This document shows positions 32,237 to 43,053 of a stretch of DNA of 43,053 nt, piece by piece. The notes beneath the pieces are model-generated. The model did not search any database and had not been told where the DNA came from. It saw only the letters and a list, made by a program, of their open reading frames with translations. Positions within the stretch are counted from its first letter, which is position 1. Each line of letters starts with the position of its first letter. The stretch comes from Halioglobus sp. (GTDB lineage Bacteria; Pseudomonadota; Gammaproteobacteria; Pseudomonadales; Halieaceae), in the NCBI GenBank assembly GCA_020443425.1, contig JAGRIE010000035.1, positions 1-43,053 on the forward strand, read 5' to 3'. The position numbers and the translations under genes were made by a program.

Positions 32237-32299
32237 CCTGAGCGTTAGCAGACTGCTCCCGTGGTGGAGCGAACGTCAATTAACAACAGGATTACGCAC

Positions 32300-33625
32300 G
32301 TGTGTGAACCGTTATTCCGTAGACACAGTGAATGTATTGCCGCGCGCCTGGGATATTGCCTGCTGGCCGCGTACCTACTGCTTTGGATGCAGCCGGCGAG
32401 TGCCCGGCAAGCCCTGGCGCTGGATGAGGCGAGCCGACGGGCGATAGAGTACAACCCGCAGTTGCAGGTGTTCCAGTGGCGGTTGCAGGCCGCTGAGGGT
32501 GTGCGCCAGACTGCCGCATTGCGGCCCGGGTTCGAGTTGGGGATGGAAGCTGAGAATGTGCTCGGCTCGGGGGGCTATTCCGGCACCGACCGCGCAGAGT
32601 ACACACTGTCCCTGTCCTCCATTGTCGAACTGGGCGGCAAGCGCCACTCCCGCGTCGCCGTCGCCGATTCCCGTTATGCCCTGGCTGCAGTCGAGCGTGA
32701 AGCCCAGGCACTGGACGTGCTGGGGCAGGTGACCCAGCGCTTCATCGCGGTTCTCGCCCTGCAGGAGCGACTGCGGGTGTCAGGGCTGGCCGTGGCGCTG
32801 GCGGAGTTGTCTGTGCAAAGTGTTACCCGGCGTGTGGAGCACGGTGCTGCCCCCGATGCCGAACGCCTGCGGGCGCGGGCGGCGCTGGCTCAAACCGGGC
32901 TCATGCACGCCGCGCTCGAGGCGGAATTCGCCAGTGAAAAAATGGCGCTGGCGACGCTCTGGGGCGAGGAAAATGCCGACTTCGAGACACTCAGCGGCGA
33001 CCTGTACGCCTCGCAACCTGCTGGCCATTTCGAGGACCTCTACGAACGCGTCGTCGACAGCCCGGCGGTTCAGGTGTTTGCCACCGAAGCGCGTCTGCGC
33101 GAGGCGGAGCTGGAGCTGGTGCGCAGCCAGTCCAGTAGTGATATGAGCTGGCGGGTCGGTGTCAAGCGGCTGGAGGAGGGCGGTGATTCTGCACTCGTGG
33201 CTGAGCTTTCCATGCCGCTGTTCACAGGGAGGCGCAACCAGGGAGAGGTGAAAGCAGCACTGGCAGAGCGCTCCAGCGTAAATTATCGCAAACAGTCTTC
33301 GCTGCTCGCACTGCGCGCACGCCTGTACACCGCCTGGCAGAATCACCGCCAGGCCATCGCGGCGACCGGGGAATTGAGGGAGAGCGTCCTGCCGGCGCTG
33401 GAGGCGGCGCTTGCGCAGACGCGCGAGGCCTATGAGCGCGGACGCTACCGCTATATCGACCTTGCCAGCGTGGAACAGGAACTTCTCGAAGCCCGTCTCG
33501 CCGCAATTGATGCCGCCACCAGGGCGCTGTTAAACCAGGCACTGATTGAACAGCTGACCGCTGAACCGCTGTCTGCCCCGGAGCAGGGTGTGACACACCC
33601 ACGCGACCAGCACAGCGCCAACTGA
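32300..33625 (+). CDS. czcC: CzcC-type outer-membrane efflux factor (TolC family)
   Basis: The protein has 441 residues from GTG 32300, which has AGGA 8 bases upstream; a GTG at 32261 lacks one. A signal peptide precedes ALALDEASRRAIEYNPQLQ, the typical start of the first OEP repeat, and long coiled-coil helices with a second repeat (ALAQTREAYERGRYRYIDLASVEQELLEARL region) follow. It forms the outer-membrane tunnel for the CzcBA pump. czcB follows after 17 bases. Confidence 0.88.
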   Translation: MCEPLFRRHSECIAARLGYCLLAAYLLLWMQPASARQALALDEASRRAIEYNPQLQVFQWRLQAAEGVRQTAALRPGFELGMEAENVLGSGGYSGTDRAEYTLSLSSIVELGGKRHSRVAVADSRYALAAVEREAQALDVLGQVTQRFIAVLALQERLRVSGLAVALAELSVQSVTRRVEHGAAPDAERLRARAALAQTGLMHAALEAEFASEKMALATLWGEENADFETLSGDLYASQPAGHFEDLYERVVDSPAVQVFATEARLREAELELVRSQSSSDMSWRVGVKRLEEGGDSALVAELSMPLFTGRRNQGEVKAALAERSSVNYRKQSSLLALRARLYTAWQNHRQAIAATGELRESVLPALEAALAQTREAYERGRYRYIDLASVEQELLEARLAAIDAATRALLNQALIEQLTAEPLSAPEQGVTHPRDQHSAN

Positions 33626-33642
33626 TACCGCAGGAAACCGAC

Positions 33643-34677
33643 ATGAAACAGACCAGCAACAGATACGCCATAGTCCCAACGCTGCTGTGTTGCCTCGTCA
33701 CCGCGCTGCTGGCAGGTCAGTCCTGGCGCGCCGTCGCGGCGGGTGGACACGCCGAGGCAGACGGTCACTTGAGCCACGGCAGTGGCGCAAGCCACAGCGA
33801 AGCGCAGGGCGCCTCGCATAGCGATGAAGGACATCATGACGCTGGGGATCATCACGACGAAGATTCCCATGAAGGCGCGGTGCACATAGACGCAGGTATC
33901 GCGCAGCAATCAGGTATCAGGGTCGCGACTGTGGTGCCGACGACACTGGAGATTGTGACGCAGGCCTACGGGCGACTGGTGATACCGCCGGACAGGGAAG
34001 CCCATATTCACGCGCGGTTTCCCGGCCTCGTCAAGGCGATCAGTGTCCATGTCGGTGACCAGGTTGCCAGCGGCGAAGTGCTGGCGGTGATCGAATCAAA
34101 CGACAGCCTTCGCGATTACACGGTCAAGGCACCCATGTCCGGCATTGTGACCAAACGGCAGCTGAATCTCGGTGAGGTGACGGATGATGACCCGCTGGTG
34201 GTGCTCGTTGATGACGACCTGCTGTGGGCAGAACTGAAAATCTTCCCGCACCAGCGCAGTGCCGTAAAGCAGGGTCAACAGGTGCATCTAGCGAGAGAGC
34301 AGCGGGAACTGGTCTCGACAATCACGCATATCGCCCCCTCTGATAACAACGCGCCTTACATGCTCGCCAGGGTCAATGTCGATAACGCGCAGCGACAGTT
34401 CACCCCGGGTGAGCTGGTTCGCGCCGATATCGTCACGGCAACGGTGGATGTGCCGGTGGCGGTTCAGAACCAGGCCCTGCAAACACTCGATGGCCAAACA
34501 GTGGTATTCATTGTCGAGGGCGATACCTACAAGCCGCGTGTACTCAAGTCAGGCCGCACGGATGGGTATTCCACCGAGGTCATCGCCGGGCTGGAAGCCG
34601 GCGAGCGCTACGTGGTGGAGAACAGCTATCTCATCAAGGCCGACATCGAAAAAGCCGGTGCCGGCCACCATCACTGA
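33643..34677 (+). CDS. czcB: CzcB-type periplasmic adaptor with His-rich N-terminus
   Basis: The protein has 344 residues. After a signal or anchor (residues 10-30), residues 32-82 are strikingly His/Asp-rich (repeated SHS, GHHDAGDHHDEDSH) and a His triplet ends the protein. A lipoyl/HlyD barrel-sandwich domain (RFPGLVKAISVHVGDQVASG, APMSGIVTKRQLNLGEV) and a beta-barrel and membrane-proximal domain follow, as in metal-specific membrane fusion proteins. The His-rich tail probably binds Zn2+, Co2+, Ni2+ or Cd2+ and loads the RND pump. AGGA lies before the ATG; czcA follows after 12 bases. Confidence 0.92.
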   Translation: MKQTSNRYAIVPTLLCCLVTALLAGQSWRAVAAGGHAEADGHLSHGSGASHSEAQGASHSDEGHHDAGDHHDEDSHEGAVHIDAGIAQQSGIRVATVVPTTLEIVTQAYGRLVIPPDREAHIHARFPGLVKAISVHVGDQVASGEVLAVIESNDSLRDYTVKAPMSGIVTKRQLNLGEVTDDDPLVVLVDDDLLWAELKIFPHQRSAVKQGQQVHLAREQRELVSTITHIAPSDNNAPYMLARVNVDNAQRQFTPGELVRADIVTATVDVPVAVQNQALQTLDGQTVVFIVEGDTYKPRVLKSGRTDGYSTEVIAGLEAGERYVVENSYLIKADIEKAGAGHHH

Positions 34678-34689
34678 CAGGACGAGACC

Positions 34690-37600
34690 ATGATAGACGC
34701 GATTATCCGTTTCTCTATCGAGCGACGTTTCCTGATGTTGAGCATGGTGCTGTTTGTCGTGGGTGCCGGCGTCTGGGGCTACCAGCGTCTGCCGATTGAC
34801 GCGGTGCCCGATATCACCAATGTACAGGTGCAGATCAATACCGAAGCGCCGGGGTATTCGCCGCTGGAGGTGGAGCAGCGCATCACCTTCGCTGTGGAAA
34901 CCGCCCTGTACGGCCTGCCATCGCTGGACTACAGCCGGTCGATGTCCCGTTACGGCCTGTCCCAGGTGACAGTGGTGTTCAAGGATGGCACCGATATTTA
35001 TTTCGCCCGTGACAGGATCAATGAACGGCTGGGCGCCATAAGGGCGGCGCTGCCGCCGGGTATCGAGCCGATGATGGGGCCGGTGGCCACAGGCCTGAGT
35101 GAAATATTCCAGTACACGATAGCGGCCCTGCCGGGGGCCACGCAGGCCGACGGCTCACCCCTGGACGCTACCGCGCTGCGCGAGATACAGGAGTGGATCA
35201 TCAAGCCGCAATTGGCGCAGGTTGAAGGCATTGCCGAGATCAATACCTTCGGCGGATTTAACAAGCAGTACCACGTCACCCCTGACCCGAGGCGTCTGCT
35301 GCAGCACGGCGTCACACTGCACGTGCTGGCCGAGGCACTGCGCAATAACAACGCCAATCGCGGCGCCGGTTACATTGAGCGCAACGGCCAACAGTTACTG
35401 GTGCGCTCCACAGGCCAGCTGGCCTCGATAGAGGATATCCAGCAGGTCGTCGTAGCCCGCCATGGCAGTGTGCCGGTGCTGGTGAGGGATGTGGCGGATG
35501 TCGCGATTGGCAAGGAGTTGAGGTCCGGTGCAGCCACCCACGACGGTGAAGAGTCGGTACTCGGGATGGCGATGATGCTGGTCGGGGAGAATTCCCGGAC
35601 TGTGGCCCACGCCGCGGCGAACAAGCTAGAGGAGATCCAGTCGTCACTGCCAGCTGGCGTCAGGGTGGAGGCCGTCTATGACCGCACCACACTGGTGGAC
35701 AAGACCATTGCCACAGTGCAGACCAATTTGCTGGAAGGTGCGCTGCTCGTGGTGCTGGTCCTGTTCCTGCTGTTGGGCAATGTGCGTGCGGCACTGATCA
35801 CCGCGGCCGTGATACCGCTTGCGATGATGGCCACCATTTTCGGTATGGTACAGACTGGTGTCTCAGCCAGCCTGATGAGCCTGGGGGCTCTTGATTTCGG
35901 CCTGATTGTGGACGGCGCGGTGATTATCGTCGAAAACTGTGTGCGGCGTTTGTCCCAGGCCCGGTCCGACCATAACCGTGATCAGCACAATGCGGAGTTA
36001 TCGCTCCGGGCGCGACTGGAGGTGGTCTATACCGCGACCACTGAGGTGATTCGACCGAGCTTGTTCGGTGTGGCCATTATCACCGTCGTGTATATCCCGA
36101 TATTCACGCTGACCGGCGTGGAGGGGAAGATGTTCCACCCCATGGCGGCAACAGTTGTGATGGCATTGGTCGCGGCCATGGTGTTTTCGCTCACCCTGAT
36201 CCCGGCAGCAGTGGCCATTTTTCTGCGCGGTAATGCGGGCACCGGCGAGAGCCGGGTGATTGTGGCTGGCAAATCGCTGTATCGCCCGCTGCTGGAAGTC
36301 GCCGTGCGATGGCGCTGGCTGCTGGTGTCAGCGGCGACCCTGCTGGTCGTCTGCTGCGCCTGGTTGATGACGACGCTCGGCTCTGAATTTATTCCACAGC
36401 TCGATGAGGGCGATATCACCATGCACGCCATGCGTGTGAACGGCACGGGCCTGGAGCAATCGGTGGACATGCAGAAGCTGCTGGAGAAACATGTGCTGCA
36501 GTTTCCCGAGGTGGAAAAGACCTTTGCCAAAATTGGCACTCCCGATGTCGCCACTGACCCCATGCCTCCGAACCTCGCGGACAGCTTTATCATCCTCAAA
36601 CCGCGCGACGAATGGCCGAACCCCGCCAAACCCAAAGCGCAGTTGCTACAGGAACTGCAGGTGGCGCTGCAGGAATTGCCCGGTAATAACTACGAATTCA
36701 CCCAGCCGATTCAGATGCGTTTCAACGAACTGATATCGGGTGTTCGCTCCAACCTGGGTATCAAGGTTTTCGGGGATGATATCGATCAGCTGTTGTCGAG
36801 TGCCGAACAGATAGCAACAGTGGTCCGGGCGATAGACGGGGCCGCCGATGTCAGTGTTGAGCAGGTAGAGGGCTTGCCGATGCTGGGTATCGAGCCCCGG
36901 CGCTCACTGTTGGCGCGCTACGGGCTCACCGTTGATGACCTGCAGGATACCCTGGCCATGAGCATCGGTGGTGAGGAGGTCGGCGTTATCTACGAGGGTG
37001 ACAGGCGCTTCAGCCTGGTAGTCCGCCTGCCGGAGGCATTGCGGCGCGACATCGATAAGCTGCACGCGCTGCCGGTGTCGCTCCCGGATGGCGGTTATAT
37101 CCCGCTTGCCGAGATCGCCACCGTCGCGATAAAGCCCGCGCCGGCACAAATCAGTCGCGAGAACGGCAAGCGTCGTGTGGTCGTCTCTGCCAATGTGCGC
37201 GAGCGCGATCTCGGAGGGTTTGTCGACGAGGTGAAAGCCCGTATCGCTGACGAAGTCACACTGCCGAGCGGTTACTGGCTGGCCTATGGCGGGACCTTTG
37301 AACAGATGGAGTCTGCGGGCAGGCGCCTGTTTATAGTGGTCCCTGCCACCCTCGCGATCATCATGGGGCTGCTGGTCCTCGCCTTTGGCTCAATCAAGGA
37401 TGCATTGATTGTGTTCACCGGTGTGCCGATGGCATTGACCGGGGGGGTGCTCGCACTCTGGCTGCGCGGCATGCCCCTGTCCATTCCCGCCGCAATCGGG
37501 TTTATCGCACTGTCTGGAGTTGCAGTGCTGAACGGCCTCGTACTGGTGACGTTCATCCGCGATCGCTGGCGTGACACAGCAGACCTTATGGGCGCTGTGC

Positions 37601-37818
37601 TGGACGGCGCCCTGAGCCGCCTGCGCCCGGTGCTGATGACGGCGCTGGTCGCGAGCCTGGGTTTCCTGCCCATGGCGCTGAATACCGGCACGGGCGCCGA
37701 AGTGCAGCGACCGCTGGCCACGGTGGTGATCGGTGGGATAATTTCGTCGACACTGCTGACGCTGTTGGTGCTGCCGGTGATTTACCACTGGGTGCATCGA
37801 CGTGAAGACTGCAAATAG
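34690..37818 (+). CDS. czcA: CzcA-type heavy-metal RND efflux pump
   Basis: The protein has 1042 residues with the standard RND layout: N-terminal helix, two large periplasmic loops and two groups of membrane helices. Helix 4 carries DFGLIVDGAVIIVEN with Asp402, Asp408 and Glu415, the same residues and numbers known to be needed for proton/metal antiport in Cupriavidus CzcA; this is the HME type that handles divalent cations such as Zn2+, Co2+ and Cd2+. Monovalent Cu/Ag pumps carry a different motif. With CzcC and CzcB it would expel metal from periplasm and cytoplasm to the outside. The stop is 3 bases from the opposite antiporter gene. Confidence 0.95.
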   Translation: MIDAIIRFSIERRFLMLSMVLFVVGAGVWGYQRLPIDAVPDITNVQVQINTEAPGYSPLEVEQRITFAVETALYGLPSLDYSRSMSRYGLSQVTVVFKDGTDIYFARDRINERLGAIRAALPPGIEPMMGPVATGLSEIFQYTIAALPGATQADGSPLDATALREIQEWIIKPQLAQVEGIAEINTFGGFNKQYHVTPDPRRLLQHGVTLHVLAEALRNNNANRGAGYIERNGQQLLVRSTGQLASIEDIQQVVVARHGSVPVLVRDVADVAIGKELRSGAATHDGEESVLGMAMMLVGENSRTVAHAAANKLEEIQSSLPAGVRVEAVYDRTTLVDKTIATVQTNLLEGALLVVLVLFLLLGNVRAALITAAVIPLAMMATIFGMVQTGVSASLMSLGALDFGLIVDGAVIIVENCVRRLSQARSDHNRDQHNAELSLRARLEVVYTATTEVIRPSLFGVAIITVVYIPIFTLTGVEGKMFHPMAATVVMALVAAMVFSLTLIPAAVAIFLRGNAGTGESRVIVAGKSLYRPLLEVAVRWRWLLVSAATLLVVCCAWLMTTLGSEFIPQLDEGDITMHAMRVNGTGLEQSVDMQKLLEKHVLQFPEVEKTFAKIGTPDVATDPMPPNLADSFIILKPRDEWPNPAKPKAQLLQELQVALQELPGNNYEFTQPIQMRFNELISGVRSNLGIKVFGDDIDQLLSSAEQIATVVRAIDGAADVSVEQVEGLPMLGIEPRRSLLARYGLTVDDLQDTLAMSIGGEEVGVIYEGDRRFSLVVRLPEALRRDIDKLHALPVSLPDGGYIPLAEIATVAIKPAPAQISRENGKRRVVVSANVRERDLGGFVDEVKARIADEVTLPSGYWLAYGGTFEQMESAGRRLFIVVPATLAIIMGLLVLAFGSIKDALIVFTGVPMALTGGVLALWLRGMPLSIPAAIGFIALSGVAVLNGLVLVTFIRDRWRDTADLMGAVLDGALSRLRPVLMTALVASLGFLPMALNTGTGAEVQRPLATVVIGGIISSTLLTLLVLPVIYHWVHRREDCK

Positions 37819-39543: not shown

Positions 39544-39829
39544 GTCAAGGTCCTTTGGTCGGCATTGCGGCAACGCCGAGTGTCGCCGATGTTCGCTGCA
39601 GCTGTCGTGTTTTTGTATCCCACTAGAACCGTCCAGTCAATGCGCCTGCCACTGTTGTCCGGGCAGGGCCCGCCAAGAGATGTGGGTTGCGGCGGTGTGA
39701 CCGGCGGGTTGCCGCTTTGCTTTACAAGTACATACGCAACTGCAACTATCATCCCCCTGGATGTTGTTTTTATTTTTTCCATGCTCTGCCAGAATCCGGC
39801 GCTGGACTCAACTAGGAATTGAAACGCTG

Positions 39830-40822
39830 ATGATCGACGTGAAGATGTGGGGCCGCGCGCTGGCACAGATGCCCAAACTCTCCCACAGCGAGTGGCAGGT
39901 GCTGGACCCAATAGCGAAATGGTTGATCGCCTGTCGCGCGTCCGTGCTGTTCATGACCTTCACTGCGGCGGCACTGGGTGGTGTGATGGCGTGGCGCGCC
40001 GGCCATTTCCACTGGGGGCTGTGGCTGGCGACTGTACTCGGATTGCTGTTCGCTCACGCCACCAATAACCTGCTCAATGATTACACCGATTCCCGCCGCG
40101 GCATCGACAAGGACAACTATTACCGCAACCAGTACGGTGTACATGTGCTCGAGGATGGCCTGATGAACGAGCGCCAGTTCTGGCGCTACGTGGGTGTCAC
40201 GGCCGGTCTGGCGCTGTTGCTCGGCGGCTGGCTGGTATCCCAGCGAGCCGGGCTGACCGTGGACCTGATGCTGGCCGGCGCATTTTTTGTGCTGTTCTAC
40301 ACCTGGCCGCTGAAGTATTACGGCCTCGGCGAGCCGGCGGTGCTGTTGGTATGGGGGCCGTTGATGGTGGGCGGTACATACTACGTGTTGAGCGGTAGCT
40401 GGAGCGCGGATGTCGCCTGGCTCAGCGTGGTGTTTGCCCTGGGGCCGACCACCGTGTTGTTCGGTAAGCACACGGATAAATGGCAGGCGGACAAATGCAA
40501 AGGGGTGAATACCCTGCCAGTGATTATCGGTGAACGGGCGGCGCGCCGCTCAATTGCCGCGATGGTCGCTGCGCAATACCTGCTGTGCGCAGCGCTGGTG
40601 GTAGCCGGCAGCTTTCACTGGCCGCTGCTGCTGGTGCTGGCCAACCTGGTACACCTGCCCGCACTGATGCGCATACTCGGTCAAGCCAAACCGCAGTCGC
40701 CACCGCCCGGCTACCCCGAGGGCGCCTGGCCGCTCTGGTTTTCCGCTTACGCCTTCAGCCACACCCGGCGCTTTACCTCGCTGTTTCTGCTAGGCGTCCT
40801 GCTGGATACCCTTCTATACTGA
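39830..40822 (+). CDS. UbiA superfamily prenyltransferase, MenA-like motif
   Basis: The protein has 330 residues from ATG 39830 (AGGA upstream but distant; an ATG at 39845 is possible). About eight to nine membrane helices carry the two Asp-rich motifs of the family: NDYTDSRRGID at 83-93, close to the NDYxD form seen in MenA, and DKWQADKCKGVNTLPV in the second half. UbiA-type enzymes attach isoprenoid chains to quinone or other aromatic precursors at the membrane. The CymA-like quinol dehydrogenase gene lies 133 bases downstream, so a role in making the menaquinone used there is attractive but unproved. Confidence 0.8.
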   Translation: MIDVKMWGRALAQMPKLSHSEWQVLDPIAKWLIACRASVLFMTFTAAALGGVMAWRAGHFHWGLWLATVLGLLFAHATNNLLNDYTDSRRGIDKDNYYRNQYGVHVLEDGLMNERQFWRYVGVTAGLALLLGGWLVSQRAGLTVDLMLAGAFFVLFYTWPLKYYGLGEPAVLLVWGPLMVGGTYYVLSGSWSADVAWLSVVFALGPTTVLFGKHTDKWQADKCKGVNTLPVIIGERAARRSIAAMVAAQYLLCAALVVAGSFHWPLLLVLANLVHLPALMRILGQAKPQSPPPGYPEGAWPLWFSAYAFSHTRRFTSLFLLGVLLDTLLY

Positions 40823-40955: not shown

Positions 40956-41516
40956 ATGAATGACAAGCCCCGCAAGCGCTGGTTCGACAGCCTGCGCCGT
41001 CCGTCCGCACGGTATTCCGTACTCACACTGGTGGCAGTGGGAATCGTGGTCGGTGTTTTCGGTATTCTCGCCTTTGACACCACCATGCACGCCACCAGCA
41101 CCGAAGAGTTCTGCGTCAGCTGCCACGAGATGGACATCCCCTACGCGCAACTGCAAACCACCGCTCATTTCAGCAACCGCAGCGGCGTGACTGCCACCTG
41201 TTCTGACTGCCACCTGCCGAAAGAGTTTGTGCCCAAGATGATCCGCAAAGTGGAAGCAGCGCGGGAAGTCTGGGGTACCATGACCGGCATCATAGACACC
41301 CCCGAGAAGTACGCTGCCCACCTGCCTGCGATGAAGGCACGTGAGATCGCGCGCCTGCAGGCGAATGATTCGCAGGAATGCCGCAATTGCCACGACATGG
41401 ATCGCATGAAGCCTGAACTGCAGGGCAAGATGGCGCAGCGTTTCCACCAGCCCGGTCGCATGAAAGAAAAAACCTGTATCGATTGCCACGACGGTATCGC
41501 TCACCCGGAGAGCTAG
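40956..41516 (+). CDS. cymA: CymA/NapC/NirT family tetraheme quinol dehydrogenase
   Basis: The protein has 186 residues, almost the length of Shewanella CymA (187). One N-terminal membrane anchor (about 19-40) is followed by four c-type heme sites, CVSCH (53-57), CSDCH (82-86), CRNCH (142-146) and CIDCH (174-178). The segment RPSARYSVLTLVAVGIVVGV and the HATST-EFC-SCH run closely follow CymA. Proteins of this kind take electrons from menaquinol in the inner membrane and pass them to periplasmic cytochromes. AAGGAT lies upstream of the ATG. The decaheme cytochrome gene follows, with a separate FNR-controlled promoter between them. Confidence 0.92.
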   Translation: MNDKPRKRWFDSLRRPSARYSVLTLVAVGIVVGVFGILAFDTTMHATSTEEFCVSCHEMDIPYAQLQTTAHFSNRSGVTATCSDCHLPKEFVPKMIRKVEAAREVWGTMTGIIDTPEKYAAHLPAMKAREIARLQANDSQECRNCHDMDRMKPELQGKMAQRFHQPGRMKEKTCIDCHDGIAHPES

Positions 41517-41541
41517 CCGGGGCGCACCGTTGGCTGGGAAA

Positions 41542-41555
41542 TTGATCTGGATCAA
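41542..41555. promoter_or_regulatory. Perfect FNR/Anr binding site upstream of the decaheme gene
   Basis: TTGATCTGGATCAA matches the FNR consensus TTGAT-N4-ATCAA at all ten defined positions and is a perfect palindrome except for the central tetranucleotide. It is centred about 91 bases before the proposed GTG of the decaheme gene. TTGGGT (41580-41585) and TATTCA (41603-41608), 17 bases apart, are possible promoter boxes placing the site near -66. Confidence 0.85.
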
Positions 41556-41639
41556 CGAGTGATGGAATGATTCCGTCGCTTGGGTGCAAGGTAGCGCCCG
41601 AATATTCAATACTAATAATGAATGCAGGTGGTCTGCTTG

Positions 41640-42536
41640 GTGCGAAATATCGTGATGACGGGTAGGGCGGTCAGGAGTGTTTTTTTTCTTTGCAGCCTGC
41701 TATTGGCGACAGTGGCGTGGGCAGAGGAGGAGCCCGGCTGTCTCGACTGTCACGCCGCAGACGATGACTCCGCAGTGCACCAGGTATTCAGAACGGTTCA
41801 TGGCTCTATCAACGGTGGCGGCGCCAATACCTGTACCGCCTGTCATGGCCCCAGCGCCAAGCACGACATGCGCGGCAGGAAGCAGCCGGTCGATATCAGC
41901 TTTGGCCCGCGCTGGACTTCAGACGTTGAGACCCGCAACGCCAGCTGCCAGGGATGTCACGACAACGAGCAACAGATTCACTGGCTGGGCAGTGCTCACC
42001 AGCAGGAGAACCTTGCCTGCAGCGATTGCCACCAGTCTCATACCGCACAGGATCCGATGCTGACCACCGAGGGGTCGGAGGCGCTGTGCCTGAACTGTCA
42101 CACCCAGGTGCGCGCTGAATTGCAGCTGCCCTCTCGCCACCCGATCATCGAGGGCAAAACCGAGTGTGTGGATTGCCACAATCCGCACGGCAGCCTCGGT
42201 GACTCGGCGCTGCGGGAGGTAACCCTGAACGATAACTGTTTCAGTTGTCACCAGGACAAGCGCGGGCCCTTCCTGTGGGAGCACCCGCCCGCCGCGGAAG
42301 ACTGTTCACTGTGTCACCGCCCGCACGGGTCCGTGCATGAAGACCTGCTGACGGCCAGGGGGCCGGCGCTCTGCCAGCAGTGCCACGCGGCGGCCTTCCA
42401 TCCGAGTGTGCCCTACGGCAGCGAGGGGCTTGCCGGCGGCAGCGCCAACCAGAATTTGCTGGGCAAGAATTGCATGAACTGTCACAGCCAGGTCCACGGT
42501 TCCAATCACCCGTCGGGAGCGCGTCTGACACGATGA
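41640..42536 (+). CDS. Decaheme c-type cytochrome, MtrA/DmsE family
   Basis: The protein has about 298 residues. A signal peptide ends at AWA-EEE and the mature chain holds exactly ten CxxCH heme sites (CLDCH, CTACH, CQGCH, CSDCH, CLNCH, CVDCH, CFSCH, CSLCH, CQQCH, CMNCH) in two groups of five, with many His residues as distal ligands. This is the MtrA/PioA/DmsE type, which threads electrons through an outer-membrane barrel. GTG 41640 is chosen because AGGTGG lies 8 bases upstream; ATG 41655 and ATG 41622 are alternatives. Its ATGA junction (42533-42536) overlaps the MtrB-like gene. An FNR site upstream suggests anaerobic induction. Confidence 0.92.
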   Translation: MRNIVMTGRAVRSVFFLCSLLLATVAWAEEEPGCLDCHAADDDSAVHQVFRTVHGSINGGGANTCTACHGPSAKHDMRGRKQPVDISFGPRWTSDVETRNASCQGCHDNEQQIHWLGSAHQQENLACSDCHQSHTAQDPMLTTEGSEALCLNCHTQVRAELQLPSRHPIIEGKTECVDCHNPHGSLGDSALREVTLNDNCFSCHQDKRGPFLWEHPPAAEDCSLCHRPHGSVHEDLLTARGPALCQQCHAAAFHPSVPYGSEGLAGGSANQNLLGKNCMNCHSQVHGSNHPSGARLTR

Positions 42537-43053
42537 AGAACAGCTGTCGCCAACTGCTCCGCATGAGCGCCGTCAGCCTGCTGGCCCTGTCGGCGAGCGC
42601 TGTGCTGTCGGAAGAGGCTGCGAACCCCGATGTCGAGGTGGATCAGTACAGCCCTCTGGGCCTGCAGGCGCGGCCGCTGCCGCGTCCCTGGGATGCCGGT
42701 GGTGCCAATGCCGTGCGTCTGGGGCTGGGCTACACCAGTGATGACAATTATATGTTCGGCGAGTACAACGGGCTCAGCCAACGCGGGCCGACGGCGATCG
42801 CCGACCTGCGCTGGCGCGACTTTCACAGCAGCGACAATTACTGGCAGGTGTCCCTGTCCGACATAGGGCTCGACACGCGCGAGGGCAAGGCGATCTGGGG
42901 GCGTGCGGATCAGCTGCGGATTACACTGGGGTTTGACTCCCAGCAACAGGTGCGCAACGACAGTGGCCAGACACCGTTTCGCGGAAACGTCACGCAGTAC
43001 CTGCCGGGCGACTGGGTCAGTGGCCAGACCACCGATGAGTTCCTGGCACTGGA
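42533..43053 (+). CDS. MtrB/PioB family outer-membrane barrel protein, 3'-truncated
   Basis: The first 173 codons are present; the gene runs off the right edge. A signal peptide (MKNSCRQLLRMSAVSLLALS) precedes a mature chain of alternating beta-strand sequence. The segments VRLGLGYTSDDNYMFGEYNG and YWQVSLSDIGLDTREGKA match the start of MtrB/PioB decaheme-associated barrels. This porin-like protein would hold the decaheme cytochrome across the outer membrane. No CxxC motif appears in the visible mature N-terminus, unlike Shewanella MtrB (CKGC). The ATG overlaps the decaheme stop by 4 bases. Confidence 0.88.
   Translation, partial: MKNSCRQLLRMSAVSLLALSASAVLSEEAANPDVEVDQYSPLGLQARPLPRPWDAGGANAVRLGLGYTSDDNYMFGEYNGLSQRGPTAIADLRWRDFHSSDNYWQVSLSDIGLDTREGKAIWGRADQLRITLGFDSQQQVRNDSGQTPFRGNVTQYLPGDWVSGQTTDEFLAL

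Follow-up and report, generated by a model that had tools for sequence, protein, structure and literature searches.

Shewanella CymA draws on menaquinol, and inward electron flow has been proposed for MtoAB and PioAB; MtoB and PioB are not known to carry a CXXC motif. MtrCAB clusters of the family Halieaceae have already been published as "Group 6" (Baker et al., 2022; PMC8805035). In the main text of that paper these clusters are described as having one mtrC immediately behind mtrAB and up to four extra cytochromes, hemH adjoins all of them but two, and a CymA homologue is reported in the cluster of at least one member in almost all MtrCAB groups. The window analysed here, 43,053 nucleotides from Halioglobus sp. 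(contig JAGRIE010000035.1 of assembly GCA_020443425.1), is the entire contig C151 of a draft genome (G000; 4.33 Mb, 222 contigs, estimated 94% complete), and its right edge is therefore an assembly break. The conduit encoded at this edge (Table 1) is the MtrCAB of the published Halieaceae group, the system itself not being new, and its reading as a Group 6 conduit equipped with its own quinol dehydrogenase is quite probable, the label being taken from family and gene order.

Table 1. Features of the conduit locus. Plain numbers are positions in the window (contig C151); L004 positions lie on contig C156 of the same genome.
Feature	Position	Strand	Remarks
PT, UbiA-family, MenA-type prenyltransferase	39761..40822	+	directly left of cymA; PF01040
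cymA, CymA/NapC-type tetraheme quinol dehydrogenase	40956..41516	+	186 aa; PF03264
mtrA, decaheme cytochrome of trans-outer-membrane conduit	41622..42536	+	304 aa; TIGR03508
mtrB, outer-membrane barrel, first 173 residues	42533..43053	+	cut by contig edge; PF11854
mtrB, C-terminal 113 residues	L004:2-391		start of G000:C156; PF11854 and alignment to G016 MtrB
mtrC, OmcA/MtrC-family decaheme protein	L004:410-2680		G000:C156; 756 aa; TIGR03507
ZnuD-like TonB receptor	L004:2780-5020	opposite to mtrC	462 bits, ZnuD cut-off 950

The first-pass annotation had read a tetraheme CymA-like gene, a decaheme MtrA/DmsE-like gene and an MtrB/PioB-like barrel in this order, and both the heme counts and the family profiles agree with it. 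The tetraheme protein, with four CXXCH motifs and, judged by eye, a single membrane anchor at its N-terminus, belongs to the NapC/NirT tetraheme family (PF03264, E 1.4e-64), while against the subfamily model TIGR02161 it scores 225.9 bits, under the cut-off of 310.6. The decaheme protein has ten CXXCH motifs and passes the DmsE-family decaheme model TIGR03508 (265.7 bits against a cut-off of 192.2, E 4.1e-79), which places it in the DmsE/MtrA family and, at the level of family models, not outside the MtrA/DmsE/PioA clade. These motif counts and the E-values of both profiles are far beyond chance, and among all frames of the window no other one holds two or more CXXCH motifs. The ATGA overlap of the last two genes, also pointed out in that annotation, is there as described, with the mtrA stop at 42534-42536 and the mtrB start at 42533-42535. 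Over the whole genome PF03264 matches two places, namely cymA and, weakly (21 bits), the inside of mtrA. Two kinds of tetraheme gene occur near mtr in the family, one scoring roughly 200-220 bits with PF03264 and the other roughly 95-107 bits, and that of the window is of the former kind. In 28 of the 34 family genomes that have mtrA at E ≤ 1e-100, a PF03264 gene is found no more than 8 kb away from it. To the left of the conduit, at 32261-37818 of the window, a heavy-metal efflux set is found, consisting of an OEP-type outer-membrane protein, an HlyD/CusB-type adaptor and a CusA/CzcA pump that passes the TIGR00914 cut-off.

The mtrB frame stays open to the contig edge for 173 codons and matches PF11854 (MtrB_PioB) over profile positions 1-95 (1.8e-9). 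It does not break soon after the edge: over the genome PF11854 matches two places, this barrel start and C156:65-385 (3.5e-24), where MtrB resumes. The relative G016 has an MtrB of 760 aa, with which the barrel start shares 80% identity over residues 1-173 of both proteins, and the C156 piece is 84% identical to residues 648-760 of the G016 protein; the middle, about 474 residues, is absent from the assembly in the PF11854 genome search. Both parts pass the PF11854 cut-off, and neither alone reaches that of TIGR03509. We infer that C151 and C156 join within mtrB, which would also link mtrB to mtrC in this genome. At the very end of C156 (L004:1-100), inside mtrB, the first 50 bases are repeated exactly in the following 50, apparently an artefact of the assembly at a contig end.

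The C156 part of mtrB is directly followed by the gene of a protein with ten CXXCH motifs that scores 505.7 bits with TIGR03507 (cut-off 209.3), and its lipoprotein-like start, with a lipobox-like LLVAC-GGGG (by eye), predicts a surface decaheme lipoprotein. Hence the partner that had been expected to the right of the window, either an OmcA/MtrC cytochrome or a DmsAB reductase, is present across the presumed join as an OmcA/MtrC-family decaheme and not as DmsAB. On unbroken contigs the order is PT-cymA-mtrA-mtrB-mtrC-hemH in G001, a congener of the genome analysed here, and PT-cymA-mtrA-mtrB-mtrC, a second mtrC and then hemH in G016; this second OmcA/MtrC-type decaheme gene lies at L025:2183-4459, where the main text of PMC8805035 describes Group 6 Halieaceae clusters with one. 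The cluster of the window is cymA-mtrA-mtrB-mtrC, its genes and families being read directly, and its order likewise except for the contig gap in mtrB. At the place of hemH in G001, the ZnuD-like receptor stands directly after mtrC here; it carries long His/Asp-rich runs (DHDDHDD). Nonaheme or octaheme genes, which several relatives have, are absent from the window and the first 20 kb of C156.

A match to mtrA at E ≤ 1e-100 was obtained in 34 of the 140 family genomes, and the window's genome holds a single mtrA match. In a tree built by a quick method and including 14 MtrC-linked family rows, with warnings on long rows and on the make-up of the Shewanella row, the window's MtrA lies within a 12-row Halieaceae clade (SH-aLRT 99), G022 and G024 fall unresolved outside that clade, and the DmsE-type copy of the relative G013 groups with the Shewanella chain, apart from the MtrA of the window. 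Within the named collection (12 loci), relatives include Halioglobus and Haliea MAGs, further Gammaproteobacteria and, more distantly, two Lysobacteraceae MAGs. A plasmid search for decaheme relatives returned three records, a Photobacterium replicon (38.7%) and the nrfB of two Salmonella records. The decaheme MtrA of PDB entry 6r2q, chain A, is labelled "Cystathionine beta-synthase" in the PDB copy, apparently a wrong label.

Since MtrC follows mtrB and no DmsA or DmsB lies beside mtrAB, the conduit is taken as cymA-mtrA-mtrB-mtrC, and an identity as DmsEF was dropped. A DmsEF-type system feeding an extracellular DMSO-type reductase could be suggested by the DmsE name of TIGR03508 and by G013, a relative with a second set of such a kind (decaheme, CKSC barrel, molybdopterin oxidoreductase), but is most improbable given the OmcA/MtrC-family gene, the separation from the G013 copy in the MtrA tree, and the position of the molybdopterin oxidoreductase of C156 (L004:17681-19834), which lies 15 kb away from mtrC on the opposite strand and stays under the cut-off for the best 25 of 27 models. 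The second set of G013 (L038:8565-14089), DmsEFA-like, is found in a genome that also has MtrCAB.

The electron donor named in the first-pass annotation was menaquinol, and this part of it finds no support. MenD over the cut-off was found in none of the 36 family genomes searched, 28 of which have a completeness of 90% or more and a contamination of 5% or less, and in one of all 57 genomes searched, which is of another family; MqnA/MqnD (PF02621) likewise matched in none of the 36 and in one of the 57. The same searches came over the cut-off in 7 (MenD) and 4 (MqnA/MqnD) of 14 control genomes. The best MenD score in the window's genome is 56 bits against a cut-off of 244.2, and the sub-cut-off matches seen in 56 of the 57 genomes (E ≤ 0.001) are tentatively taken for other thiamine-diphosphate enzymes. 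Moreover, ubiquinone Q-8 is listed for all six Halieaceae strains tabulated in Table 1 of PMC6440738. With neither route found in any of the 36 family genomes searched and Q-8 in the six tabulated isolates, it is very unlikely that self-made classical menaquinol feeds CymA as in Shewanella, despite the homology of CymA and the MenA-like gene beside it. NapC-type proteins using ubiquinol are known in other bacteria, and ubiquinol may serve a CymA/NapC-type protein here too; its potential is higher than that of menaquinol, so that the acceptor would have to be a high-potential one, or else the flow of electrons may be inward. The most likely donor would be ubiquinol (or a quinone that the adjacent prenyltransferase completes), as opposed to menaquinol of the cell's own making. 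A mismatch worth attention is that a CymA-MtrCAB chain, for which menaquinol is the usual explanation, occurs in a family in which no menaquinone route can be seen and whose tabulated isolates contain ubiquinone-8, together with a MenA-type prenyltransferase that accompanies the conduit in most cases.

The prenyltransferase (PT) beside cymA belongs to the UbiA family (PF01040, 97.2 bits against a cut-off of 34.2). Its best NCBIfam models are of MenA and PRK05951 types, all 15 listed being under cut-off, and against the MenA model TIGR00751 it scores 54.1, below the cut-off of 102.15. In a PDB search with E up to 10 it matches UBIAD1 alone (4.8e-11), which completes vitamin K2 in animals. The first Asp motif is as in E. 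coli MenA, while the second reads KH[TI]DKxxxD, kept in the 15 readable rows, and not NNLRDxxxD as in E. coli MenA; homology to most relatives sets in at about residue 20, and the gene may therefore begin further downstream. PT is a diverged MenA-type enzyme and possibly an accessory gene for quinone making. Separate UbiA and CyoE genes, each over its cut-off, are present in the genome, and a second MenA-like gene lies at L113:1429-2343 (G000:C155), between radical-SAM-like and sugar-transferase-like frames (frames by eye).

For counting over the 140 family genomes, a genome was scored as having mtr with mtrA at E ≤ 1e-100 and PT at E ≤ 1e-30, the weaker decahemes of G033 and G097 (39-41% identity) being counted as without mtr. 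PT is found in 48 genomes, together with mtrA in 31, and mtrA stands without PT in three (G002, G091, G100); PT thus occurs in 31 of the 34 mtrA genomes against 17 of the 106 without strong mtrA, the latter including G097 with its weaker decaheme and G034 with a truncated PT (Fisher p 1.4e-15, ignoring relatedness). The distance between PT and mtrA is at most 8 kb in 25 of the 31 genomes having both. A tree built on the rpoB sequences of 27 genomes (the gene turned up in all but G002, G007 and G014 of the 30 genomes examined; that of G000 is partial, and the longer piece was taken for the split one of G018) gave four independent pairs on well-supported branches and six on all branches, and PT changed in the same way as mtr in an average of 3.8 of the 4 pairs and never opposite, which is not significant (p 0.125); here the truncated PT of G034 and the weak mtrA of G033 were scored absent. 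The raw association of PT with the conduit is strong, and the small tree-aware test is not significant.

Adjacency of PT as proof of a role in the conduit was dropped, because PT also stands beside hemH without mtr. Whether PT stands outside the conduit altogether, as an old neighbour of hemH with the mtr genes inserted between the two or lost from between them, is an evenly balanced question. In G014 (L076) and G026 (L079) PT adjoins hemH and mtr is located elsewhere, and in G034 (L082), where mtr is absent, a truncated PT lies at 1.2 kb from hemH, the latter gene being Pfam-confirmed in G016 and assigned elsewhere by BLAST cluster. The same reading is favoured by the PT genomes without strong mtrA, which include six of the eight in g44 that have PT and all four such genomes in g13, by G100, a one-contig genome with mtr and no PT match, and by the outcome of the tree-aware test. 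On the other hand, within the window's genus PT is present in seven of the eight mtr genomes and in none of the 10 others, and G015 and G022 keep PT in stretches of 17-18 kb without a seen hemH or mtr neighbour. The idea that PT tracks NapC/CymA-type genes in general was also rejected, as only four (G067, G096, G097, G099) of the 17 genomes that have PT but no strong mtrA show a PF03264 match (E ≤ 1e-15). The truncated gene of G034 (L082:8715-9197) covers only the first half of PT in a genome with no mtrA match, and is perhaps the trace of a lost cluster.

Among the open-access papers listed, none ties such a prenyltransferase to an MtrCAB conduit in its text. One conceivable, if unlikely, role is that Halieaceae conduits use a dedicated quinone not made from scratch, with PT prenylating a naphthoquinone precursor scavenged from neighbours or making an unknown quinone; if true, a ubiquinone-only lineage would gain a pool of low potential reserved for MtrCAB. 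A comparable case is described in PMC10746273, where Lactiplantibacillus exports electrons by means of exogenous quinones. If PT makes the quinone of the conduit, extracellular respiration in these marine bacteria would need a special or borrowed carrier, and if it does not, what calls for an explanation is an MtrCAB fed by ubiquinol or running inward.

By analogy with MtrCAB conduits of known structure and physiology, the electron path would begin with the CymA-like tetraheme protein, which, anchored in the inner membrane, would exchange electrons with the quinone pool and pass them to the decaheme MtrA seated inside the MtrB barrel, and MtrA would hand them on to the surface decaheme MtrC and from there to an extracellular acceptor. 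The flow is most likely directed outward and would serve overflow or anaerobic respiration. Which acceptor would serve is touched by the CXXC motif of MtrB, which is found in none of the 13 full-length MtrC-linked Halieaceae rows nor in the N-terminal part from the window; it is also absent from the G033 barrel, which has no mtrC nearby, and present, as CKSC, in the DmsF-type barrel of G013. According to the text of PMC12175506, the C42A change in the CXXC motif of S. oneidensis MtrB abolished ferric iron reduction. Metal reduction hence cannot be assumed for the Halieaceae conduits, and the missing motif weakens the metal-reduction reading.

The lack of this motif, linked to ferric iron reduction in the text cited above, together with a quinone pool without a visible menaquinone route, would also suit a conduit that runs inward, in which electrons would enter through MtrC and MtrA from Fe(II), Mn(II) or some other reduced surface and reach the ubiquinone pool by way of CymA. 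We regard this direction as unlikely, though the presence of MtrC is a weak argument against it: the main text of PMC8805035 raises the idea of reductive capacity gained via MtrC on an MtrAB core and then qualifies it, so that the presence of MtrC does not settle the direction.

Compared with known systems, the outward-running conduit preferred here shares MtrA and MtrB homologues with DmsEF-DmsAB, and differs from it in having MtrC in place of the DMSO reductase. MtoAB and PioAB, compared by description, are likewise homologous to MtrAB, whereas the present cluster has MtrC and a CymA/NapC-type partner. With the Shewanella MtrCAB and CymA (6r2q), it has in common the three-part trans-outer-membrane conduit, its MtrA being 43.9% identical to the MtrA chain (part) of that structure over 269 columns; in contrast, Shewanella cymA lies away from mtr according to the main text of PMC8805035, while here cymA is in the cluster, S. 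oneidensis MtrB has the CXXC motif and MtrB here is without it, and the MtrA of the window falls in another clade of the quick tree. From Group 6 MtrCAB, as described in the main text of PMC8805035, the locus differs in the ZnuD-like receptor that replaces hemH directly after mtrC, in having no nonaheme or octaheme gene over the stretch covered, and in the prenyltransferase beside the conduit, a gene unnamed in that main text. It agrees with this group in its Halieaceae origin, in mtrC directly after mtrAB and in the CymA homologue within the cluster.
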